Below, one piece after another: positions 17,157 through 18,666 of a stretch of 36,744 nt of DNA. The stretch covers positions 1 through 36,744 of the forward strand of contig CAJAQO010000329.1 of the NCBI GenBank assembly GCA_903944085.1. The letters run 5' to 3'. Position numbers and translations under genes: made by a program. The notes under the pieces were generated by a model. It worked only from the letters and a program-made list of their open reading frames with translations. It was not told where the DNA came from and made no database searches. This stretch comes from an uncultured Verrucomicrobia subdivision 3 bacterium (GTDB taxonomy: Bacteria > Verrucomicrobiota > Verrucomicrobiia > Limisphaerales > UBA11358). Position 1 is the first letter of the stretch. The number at the start of each line of letters is the position of its first letter.

Positions 17157-17392
17157 GCGCGGTATCTTTGTAGAACCCAGCCTAAAATAATTTCCCAGCT
17201 CCGTCAGGAGCGGCATCGGCGGCATCGGAATTAACGCAAAGGCGCAAAGACGCAAAGAAACCGTGGGATGACCAATCCAATGCCTTGCGCCTTGGCGACT
17301 TTGCGTTTTGGCGTTAAATATTTATGCCGCCCCAGACGGGGCTTTTTCATTTTGCGAATCGTGTTCTACAAATATGTCGCGCCTAACGGCGC
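17148..17392. repeat. Nested inverted-repeat element (about 245 bp)
   Basis: Three elements appear in order and then return inverted. The outer left arm (17148-17176) has GCGCC-gta-GGCGC followed by TATCTTTGTAGAAC. The outer right arm (17363-17392) is GTTCTACAAATATGTCGC followed by GCGCC-taac-GGCGC, the reverse complement with few changes. Inside are the hairpins GCTCC-gtca-GGAGC (17199) and GCCCC-agac-GGGGC (17329). At the centre are CGCAAAG at 17235, 17243 and 17251 (8-bp period), and a related inverted tract at 17283-17316. No coding capacity is visible. A third copy of the outer arm starts at 36718. Confidence 0.72.
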
Positions 17393-17401
17393 TTTGCTCT
17401 G

Positions 17402-17619
17402 GGAATCCCAACGGGATTCCATCCTTCAGCCCGGGGTTGCGCGGCACGCGCTACCCTAGTTCAGCGTCCAAACAAAATCACAACCCCAACGGGGTTGCAT
17501 CACCGTGCCGTCTGATGGATTCAACCCTTTCAGGGTTGTTTTGCGTGCGCCCGTCCACCCAGCGTAGGCCGACTCCGTCGGCCAACGCCGGGCTGAATGA
17601 TTAAATCCCGTTGGGATTT
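17402..17619. repeat. Cluster of 17-19 bp palindromes with a 3-nt centre (left group)
   Basis: Five perfect hairpins lie here: GGAATCCC-aac-GGGATTCC (17402-17420), CAACCCC-aac-GGGGTTG (17481-17497), CAACCCT-ttc-AGGGTTG (17522-17538), GGCCGAC-tcc-GTCGGCC (17567-17583) and AAATCCC-gtt-GGGATTT (17603-17619). The arms differ in sequence, but every change in one arm is matched in the other, and the centre is always 3 nt. Confidence 0.85.
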
Positions 17620-17670
17620 CTCATTGCGAATTTGCGTGCCGGTTTTCCATCCGCGCGCCTCGCACCCACC

Positions 17671-17700
17671 CCTTTCCGTGGTGCTGCGCCGTGCTTTCGC
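17671..17700 (+). repeat. 30-bp direct repeat, left copy
   Basis: CCTTTC.GTGG.GCT.CGCCGTGC.TTCGC (dots vary) occurs here and at 18058-18087, with 26 of 30 bases identical. The two copies enclose the 22-bp array. Confidence 0.75.
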
Positions 17701-17722
17701 GTCTTGGGGGCTGCTTCACGGC

Positions 17723-18000
17723 AAGCAAGGGTGAGGAAGCCTCCCGGCATGGGTGCTGGGCTTGCACCTCATCCTTGCTGTGCCTGCCCAGCAAGGGTGC
17801 TGTTCGAGTCCAGCAAGGGTGCTGCGACCTCTCGGCAAGGATGCTGTTGGCGATAAGCAAGGGTGCCGGGCTTGAACCTTACCCTTGCTGAGACCTCTCA
17901 CCATGGGTGCTGCCTTCAACCAGCAAGGGTGAGGTTCACGTCCAGCAAGGGTGGTGTGACCTCCCAGCAAGGATGCTGTCCTTGACCAGCAAGGGTGCTG
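17723..18000. repeat. 13-unit phased array with exact 22-bp period
   Basis: Units start at 17723, 17745, 17767 and so on to 17987, each exactly 22 bp after the last. Each unit has a 14-bp core, consensus CAGCAAGGGTGCTG, whose ends CAGCA and TGCTG are inverted copies of each other, and an 8-bp spacer that differs between units and is pyrimidine-rich. In units 3 (17767) and 8 (17877) the core reads as the reverse complement (ATCCTTGCTG, ACCCTTGCTG), but the phase is kept. Three units cycle through all frames, and no start, signal or domain supports translation. It is too short-pitched to be a CRISPR array. Confidence 0.9.
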
Positions 18001-18057
18001 GACGGGGTGGTTTGGGTCAAAATGCCCGCTTTTTGGCAAAAACCGCCTCGCGGCCGT

Positions 18058-18087
18058 CCTTTCGGTGGGGCTACGCCGTGCCTTCGC
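18058..18087 (+). repeat. 30-bp direct repeat, right copy
   Basis: This is the second copy of the 30-bp sequence found at 17671-17700 (26 of 30 identical), placed 58 bp beyond the last array unit. Confidence 0.75.
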
Positions 18088-18111
18088 TTCCGTCCCCCGC
18101 CCCACCGCTCC

Positions 18112-18284
18112 GGTCGCGGAGCGACCACCGGAAATGAGCCAGCTACGGAGTGGCTGGTAAGCTGCCGCAAAAACCACGCGCCCTGAAAGGACGCCGGATG
18201 CCACCGTCCTTTCAGGACGATTCCATTTGTCACCGCAACCCGGCACCTCGTGCCGGGCTAATTTCCGAATGTCGCTCCGCGACA
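18112..18284. repeat. Cluster of 3-nt-centre palindromes (right group)
   Basis: Hairpins of the same geometry as the left group recur: GGTCGC-gga-GCGACC (18112-18126), GCGCCCT-gaa-AGGACGC with one mismatch (18178-18194), CGTCCT-ttc-AGGACG (18205-18219), CCCGGCAC-ctc-GTGCCGGG (18239-18257) and TGTCGC-tcc-GCGACA (18270-18284). A degenerate one with arms AGCCA and TGGCT lies at 18137-18155. Confidence 0.85.
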
Positions 18285-18666
18285 AAAATCCGCGTTTCAT
18301 CCGGGTTTCATCGGTGGCTGAAATAATTGGCCCGCCCGCCGCTCTCCCCAAGTTTTTATGCAGGGATCGCTGCCAAAATTCGGTTCGAACATTTTATGCG
18401 CGTCACAGGGTGTCTCCGTGGATGAGGAATTAAATGAGCGAATGGGGGCAATTTCCCCAGTGGTTGATTCTATTGGTTCTGCACCGCGTCGGGTCACAAA
18501 ACCATCGTGGATAATCGGGCTAATCCCGGGCTGTCCAAAAACTCACCTTCCTGGTCTCATCCGGCGTCCCGACGGTGTCTTTTAACTCATCTATTCGTTG
18601 GCGAAAAACGGTTTCTACGGCGTCTTTCGCTTGGAAAGTCAGCCGGGGTTTGTTATCCACCCGTTA
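18285..18666. other. Upstream region of the LacI-type regulator
   Basis: This 382-bp stretch after the palindrome cluster has no supported gene; short open frames overlap in several phases. It should contain the promoter of the regulator gene at 18667. The frame of that gene is open up to a TTG at 18598, but the residues before 18667 do not fit the family. Confidence 0.5.

Follow-up and report, generated by a model that had tools for sequence, protein, structure and literature searches.

A 22-bp Phased Repeat Array from a Verrucomicrobia Bacterium, Possibly an Orphan of a Class of Arrays Defined by Their Period

The genome of an uncultured Verrucomicrobia subdivision 3 bacterium carries an intergenic array of thirteen units that appears to belong to a class of phased arrays, each of them a string of about 5–17 often quasi-palindromic sites, repeated every 21 bp exactly or, in one clade, every 22 bp, and many of them lying upstream of genes for FN3-type (fibronectin-III) or ArsR-like proteins. 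Judged from sequence comparisons, the chances are about even that this array is an orphan of the class and that, in the class as a whole, sites for protein dimers aligned on one face of the DNA control the downstream gene. The arrays point to a so far undescribed spacing-based system of DNA recognition or control. To our knowledge, operator, iteron, and centromere arrays conserve their sequence. Here, it is the period that the members of a gene clade have in common and the sequence that differs, across numerous loci in numerous species of a single genus.

The Window Array

The window, that is, the whole 36,744-nucleotide stretch analysed, is the complete contig C329 of a 5.79-Mb genome assembled in 335 contigs. 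The features of the array and of its surroundings (a second array, on contig C315, is described below) are as follows.

17723–18000, plus strand: array of 13 units with a period of exactly 22 bp, each unit a 14-bp quasi-palindromic core (consensus CAGCAAGGGTGCTG) and an 8-bp spacer
17745–17802, plus strand: array head (unit, inverted unit, TGCCTGYC spacer, first regular unit), common to the C315 array
17767–17780, minus strand: first inverted core, CCTCATCCTTGCTG as read on the plus strand, in phase, with an inverted unit as its counterpart at the corresponding end of the C315 array
17877–17890, minus strand: second inverted core, in phase, 110 bp past the first and probably a copy of it
18001–18035, plus strand: distal flank GG-CGGGGTG-TTT...AAAATGCCCG-TTTTTG, common to C315, where the gene lies on the opposite side
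17157–17722, no strand: position of the gene by analogy with C315, made mostly of long imperfect palindromes, with no FN3- or ArsR-type gene or detectable remnant

The geometry is that given by the initial annotation: the first unit starts at 17723, the others follow every 22 bp, and the last core ends at 18000. Identity within the array is 0.56 at a lag of 22 bp versus 0.22–0.23 at lags of 21 and 23 bp, and longer periods of 66 and 110 bp are also present. The self-complementary core ends and the two in-phase inverted cores, at 17767 and 17877, were likewise correctly recognized, the consensus being palindromic at P=0.003. The spacers, in contrast, are not unrelated as had been claimed. Eight of the twelve lie within two mismatches of two spacer types found on C315 (TTCAAGCC/TTCAAGGA and YGACCTCA), three of these eight as reverse complements, and the remaining four are 3–5 of 8 bases away; the summed mismatch is 27, compared with 53.6 ± 3.4 in shuffled spacers, none of 20,000 shuffles being as good. 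In consisting of tandem copies of one unit, the window array also has the form of a minisatellite (VNTR).

The inverted cores had been taken as a product that simple slippage cannot yield. They are indeed inverted in phase; selection is not required to explain them, since quasi-palindromic cores place each spacer between inverted repeats, and an inversion there keeps the phase. As the two inverted units stand 110 bp apart and the spacers that precede them differ at one of eight bases, they are probably copies of one event, spread by duplication.

A Paralogous Array on Contig C315

The second array of the same genome, also of 13 units with a 22-bp period, lies on contig C315 (locus L020, 2482–2759). 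Its actual repeat unit measures 44 bp, a dimer in which two spacers alternate, with a 90% match between dimers, and the end that carries the inverted unit faces an FN3-type gene. In alignment, the window and C315 arrays have in common the head, inverted unit included, and about 35 bp of flank at the other end; therefore, either one array was copied from the other, or both stem from one segment. Neither the C315 gene nor its leader aligns to anything beside the window array, and profile searches of the six frames of the window found no FN3-type or ArsR-type gene at E<0.5. The array is flanked instead by an HhH-GPD-like gene (a weak match) and a LacI-type gene, and its units have diverged further than the C315 units have (0.61 versus 0.76 for the best identity over six units). 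We read the window array, from these alignments, as a putative orphan copy: the C315 array would have been duplicated without its gene, leaving a second binding place or a decaying relic. The advice to look for a nearby conserved gene was sound: C315 has its FN3-type gene downstream. The window copy shares the 22-bp period exactly and has no such gene.

A Class of Arrays Defined by Period

A match to one flank of the window array led to contig C302, where an unrelated array with a 21-bp period is found. An open scan of about 748 kb of the genome for periods of 13–40 bp over six units gave 14 arrays at 21 bp, 2 at 22 bp, 3 at 24 bp, and 2 at 15 bp, in a sample that includes loci picked for a reason (window, C315, and C302), so that both 22-bp arrays (window and C315) were chosen rather than sampled, and with a period-21 count that includes the array L123, called coding below. 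No array at any other period within 13–40 bp was found in these 748 kb, and block-shuffled sequence gave no array of such strength in the same scan. Outside the window and C315, which have a core in common, every array is built on a different one. The consensus is palindromic (P<0.05) in 10 of 18 arrays not called coding versus none of three coding ones.

Relatives are uneven in this respect. One array was found in 324 kb of G001, with codon bias (L087), none in 93 kb of G041, three in 87 kb of G021 and none in a further 100 kb, one in 86 kb of G083, within a 1123-aa frame (L111), and two in 60 kb of G034; the samples of G008, G012, G032, and G042 held no array of period 21–22.

Ten of the 15 own-genome arrays not called coding, the window array included, have neither of the two gene families nearby, so further families or orphans must exist. 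The nine others are all 21-bp arrays (L037, L051, two in L065, L071, L072, L114, L119, and L126); two of them are near contig ends, and the L071 array is overlapped by one weak FN3 match (E 0.008). The genes within a few kb of these gene-less arrays include HemA, Der, PurD, PAS-domain, and transporter genes. Among 20 neighbours scanned, arrays outside the two families have no common helix-turn-helix (HTH) neighbour; the single exception is an HTH_3 gene that lies some 560 bp ahead of the array in L126. Perfect 21-bp tandem arrays occur in L065 (2–127, own contig C32) and in L294 (G019:C70), one of them at the very beginning of its contig; arrays that are young may go missing where the assembly breaks.

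Coding Status

The C315 array is closed in all six frames, and the window array has one open frame on the minus strand, inside a mechanical ORF (17716–18351). Open frames were rejected as a coding test, as such a mask is uninformative: it marks most 21-bp arrays as coding, and the 22-bp window array too. Because of this, and because few arrays are closed in all six frames (15/72), the non-coding status rests on the 22-bp period and on a test of codon-position bias. Bias at P<0.05 appears in 1 of 49 FN3 arrays and 1 of 18 ArsR arrays, in a test whose power is low with 21 columns (two of three coding controls are positive and one fails). The initial annotation had called the window array non-coding, and the 22-bp period, not a multiple of three, together with the closure of the C315 array in all frames, supports it. 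A protein-coding heptad repeat was considered as the cause of the number 21 and is disfavoured, since codon bias was detected in so few arrays and a 22-bp period breaks the frame. We call coding the arrays of L123, L087, and L111, given long frames (892 aa in L123 and 1123 aa in L111) and codon bias (L123 and L087); these are presumably coiled coils.

Two Gene Families with Upstream Arrays

Downstream of the C315 array is the gene of a protein of about 210 aa, which has no Pfam match and belongs to a multi-copy family; the predicted structure of this FN3-type protein is a helical part followed by a fibronectin-III (FN3) domain (mean pLDDT of 90). Among the members first found in the source genome, seven of eight have an array upstream. 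The best loci of the genus (E<1e-20, at least 800 bp of upstream sequence) have one in 19 of 22 cases compared with none of five weak matches, a search with P0005 found one in 14 of 17 loci with upstream sequence (five already counted), and further members in three genomes have one in 19 of 19. Pooled over distinct loci from the source genome and the genus, an array of 21 or 22 bp stands upstream in 53 of 59, the 59 being those fetched with at least 600 bp before the match and not all family members of the genus; six lack an array at the threshold of the detector. When 1326 random points are put through this detector, 23 have an array in the 1 kb upstream. For both families, the threshold was set at 0.50 over five units, and L170, at 0.49, was counted as a miss; six FN3 loci at a contig edge, with short upstream sequence (L241, L242, L255, L262, L272, and L284) were dropped before the counts. 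A narrower set of 52 FN3 loci, used below, consists of loci already known to have an array; L254 has one and is absent from it.

The arrays end 118–773 bp before the FN3 gene. A dip in GC content about 100–175 bp before the genes fits a promoter between array and gene, and we infer that a promoter lies in this gap, downstream of the array; hexamer counts give no proof, as promoter hexamers are not enriched between array and gene, TATAAT occurring in 5 of 52 gaps versus 3.6 in shuffled sequence. The consensus is palindromic in 32 of the 52 arrays. The family is rare in the wider phylum (5/387 genomes at E<1e-15, the source genome included) and patchy, with 0–23 matches per genome. In a scan with defence and phage families, two FN3 proteins match tail proteins, in their FN3 half.

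The second family came from two own-genome arrays directly upstream of related genes for ArsR-like winged-helix proteins of about 110 aa. All six clear paralogues in the source genome have a 21-bp array upstream, each with a different core, two of the six arrays being just at the detector threshold (0.50 and 0.51). Six weaker matches in the same genome have none; one of these (C64), truncated by a contig start, was dropped before the counts. Relatives at E<1e-15, taken as one best locus per genome, have an array in 12 of 17 cases, with five below the detector threshold, compared with none of 41 more distant matches; inside the genus alone, the figures are 11/14 and 0/15. One array-bearing relative, L195, comes from a genome of another taxonomic class in the same phylum. 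All the ArsR-linked arrays found lie upstream of the gene. The predicted fold, from an alignment of six, is the ArsR/SmtB winged helix (mean pLDDT of 74). A role of these proteins as defence or phage factors was considered and rejected, their matches being confined to the HTH parts of Csa3-like, CasR, and CARF models. The two array-linked families are unrelated to each other, and their genes are solitary.

Period Kept, Sequence Replaced

With array sets (52 FN3 and 18 ArsR) picked by a detector for periods of 20–23 bp, the period is 21 bp at all 18 ArsR-like loci and in 49 of 52 FN3 arrays, and 22 bp in the other three; wider scans of FN3 and ArsR loci add a few far-upstream repeats of period 14, 15, or 18 (L226, L231, L174, L175, L176, and L168). 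The three 22-bp FN3 arrays belong to C315 and to its two nearest relatives, G029 and G019:C33, whose FN3 proteins are, respectively, 71% identical to that of C315 over 214 residues and 43% identical over 113 residues; the open frame at G019:C33 has only 132 aa, and this gene may be shortened. At these three loci, period 22 scores 0.69–0.76, no other period in the range of 18–26 exceeds 0.35, and the cores are unrelated. Between C315 and G029, this is so even though a 67-bp stretch of leader in front of the gene aligns at 72%. Likewise, the FN3 proteins of L291 and L292 are 83% identical and their cores unrelated; at 90–95% protein identity, the cores are similar. Overall, array similarity correlates with protein identity at 0.35, a value that none of 2000 permutations reaches. 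Phase slips are seen in 78 units versus 717 in phase; 57 of the 78 are by 1–2 bp, and slips of this size also arise from ordinary small indels. These comparisons indicate that the period travels with the gene and that the core sequence turns over faster than the gene, “clade” being used here in the sense of pairwise similarity.

The proposal that a spacing of about two helical turns is kept is therefore well supported by the other arrays (FN3, n=52; ArsR, n=18; all at 21 or 22 bp); the window array would not have sufficed for it. Relatives without conserved phase had been named as the finding that would speak against the proposal; what the relatives have is a 22-bp period common to one gene clade, over unrelated cores.

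Searches by Sequence

BLAST searches with the array in 97 genomes matched the source genome alone, and a search with the array pattern in 293 genomes of the order gave the source genome and three others with one weak match each. The genome_contigs collection gave five single matches; viral contigs and 72,556 plasmid records gave none. Two of the five single matches are to local repeats in other phyla, of periods 21 and 22, near 3202 in L021 (Oscillatoria PCC 10802) and near 2622 in L022 (a Prevotella MAG). Sequence searches find nothing because the members of a gene clade agree in period and not in sequence, and this blindness may be the reason that the class was missed. No published description of such arrays was found in the literature searched, whose coverage leaves out most subscription journals.

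A Possible Mechanism

In the reading preferred here, each site would be bound by a protein dimer, and neighbouring dimers would make contact only when placed two turns apart, on one and the same face of the DNA; the spacing would hence be under selection, and the core would be free to drift together with its binder. The assembly of dimers upstream of the promoter would then silence the downstream gene or time its expression. For the ArsR-like family, the obvious candidate binder is its own product, in a form of autoregulation; in the FN3 family, it is possibly the FN3-type protein itself. A palindromic consensus without clear covariation within the unit is easier to reconcile with dimers on duplex DNA than with hairpins. 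The pair L291/L292, with similar proteins and unrelated cores, is awkward for this reading if the neighbouring protein reads the core. Among the roles originally put forward for the window array, protein sites on one face of the DNA remains the best; a template for small RNAs finds no consistent support, and a cassette array built unit by unit is unsupported because the spacers recur.

A broader and more tentative version, to which we give rather less than an even chance, is a spacing code in which solitary genes of at least two unrelated families have private upstream arrays with inherited period and replaced sequence; the arrays would serve as fast-diverging addresses, each read by a co-evolving protein. 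Paralogues in one cell would then stay orthogonal, the window array would represent an address cut off from its gene, and the system would be a bacterial parallel to the fast-evolving sequences of centromeres or recombination hotspots. The arrays offer a ready test case for the separate evolution of binding-site spacing and sequence, and they give a context to two uncharacterised multi-copy protein families.

Alternative Explanations

Ordinary minisatellites, that is, functionless tandem duplication and homogenisation with the period kept by in-register copying, are an unlikely explanation that nevertheless accounts for part of the data. Duplication clearly contributed, which qualifies the earlier claim that the spacing in the window array is not the result of recent tandem duplication: the 44-bp dimers of C315 are 90% alike, the window array has its longer periods of 66 and 110 bp, and 21-bp copies are perfect in L065 2–127 and L294, so that much of the regularity within arrays can be explained in this way. 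Quick core turnover and unit shifts of mostly 1–2 bp would also be expected. The part of that claim that stands is the conserved period. The sharp period spectrum of the 748-kb scan from 13 to 40 bp (14 arrays at 21, 2 at 22, 2 at 15, and 3 at 24) argues against minisatellites, and duplication alone leaves unexplained why most of the genes examined in the two families are preceded by an array. A quite improbable alternative is that array and gene form a mobile cassette in which the arrays are recombination sites, used for attachment or replication. The multi-copy and patchy genes (0–23 FN3 matches per genome), the lack of a widely recurrent third protein family (largest cluster, 5/70 loci), and the copying of the array within its own genome are consistent with mobility; however, array sequences differ at each locus, common cassette ends were not seen in an unsystematic look, and no mobility gene was identified among the neighbours scanned, which are part of all neighbours.

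It is very unlikely that the array works as RNA, as a chain of hairpins transcribed within the gene's leader. The quasi-palindromic consensus in 32 of 52 FN3 arrays would suit hairpins, and the window array folds better than its shuffles (z of −4.4), but the C315 array does not (z of −0.3). Covariation within the unit is not above a matched null in 19 arrays (P of 0.3) and is marginal in 65, where 2 of 40 null sets reach it. No Rfam family reaches its gathering score in the window and three loci; below the cut-off, the window has Acido-Lenti-1 at 18239–18284 (22.5 bits, cut-off of 37) and mir-729 at 17746–17823 (20.2, cut-off of 61). Least probable of all is a sequence-independent effect of DNA shape, with phased arrays that bend the DNA upstream of promoters and that involve a general nucleoid protein at most. 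A two-helical-turn period with free sequence is what such bending predicts, and many FN3 arrays, on inspection, have a T- or A-run per unit; yet, the window and C315 arrays have no such runs, and the units within one array stay alike, which shape alone does not need.

Comparison with Known Systems

The iterons of plasmid origins are tandem binding sites about two helical turns apart, a geometry that the phased arrays share. Unlike at such origins, the neighbours of the window array are the HhH-GPD-like (weak match) and LacI-type genes and no Rep gene, and the C315 product has no Pfam match; the plasmid records searched (72,556) hold no match either, and cores differ between nearest relatives. 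The window array differs from a CRISPR array in that 8 of its 12 spacers fall in two recurring types and its cores vary, and there is no cas gene among its two flanking genes.

In type III plasmid partition, as described in the available part of the source, the winged-helix protein TubR binds upstream direct repeats (tubC) as a filament and represses its own operon (PMC5016525). The ArsR-like loci resemble this arrangement in having a small winged-helix gene with repeats upstream. A winged-helix gene directly downstream, as in TubRC-type centromeres, is present at the ArsR-type loci and absent at the window array. The ArsR-type loci differ in having no recurrent partner gene and in having several paralogues per genome, each with another core. 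As to a motor partner, clustering of the ORFs of 70 loci reveals no widely recurring third protein: the largest cluster that does not overlap the two genes is in 5 of 70 loci, and anything above this number consists of members of the two families or of frames that overlap their genes.

Some prokaryotes are known to have tandem repeats that are unique, unrelated to each other, and dispersed over the genome, and repeat periods in multiples of three have been attributed to coding repeats, according to the available part of a study of such repeats (PMC6749651). That part names no fixed non-coding period or linkage to a gene family for bacterial minisatellites and satellites; the phased arrays differ on both points and have no detected codon pattern. 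REP palindromes, intergenic palindromic repeats, are abundant in one Verrucomicrobia species, O. terrae, as reported in the part available of PMC3733652, and the phased arrays are like REP/RAYT elements in being intergenic and palindromic. As far as the same part goes, REPs form sequence families with tags, some of them with a transposase, in contrast to phased arrays, each of which has its own core at a fixed period.

Surroundings of the Window Array

The 1.4-kb intergenic region of the window is largely made of palindromic modules. Imperfect self-palindromes of about 170–240 bp each, with 63–68% identity to their own reverse complement, occupy 17157–17393, 17404–17618, and 18113–18283, and the weak Acido-Lenti-1 match (18239–18284) sits inside one of them. 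A direct repeat with 79% identity between its copies flanks the array at 17656–17703 and 18044–18090, and a further copy is present in the same genome at C302:1859–1915.
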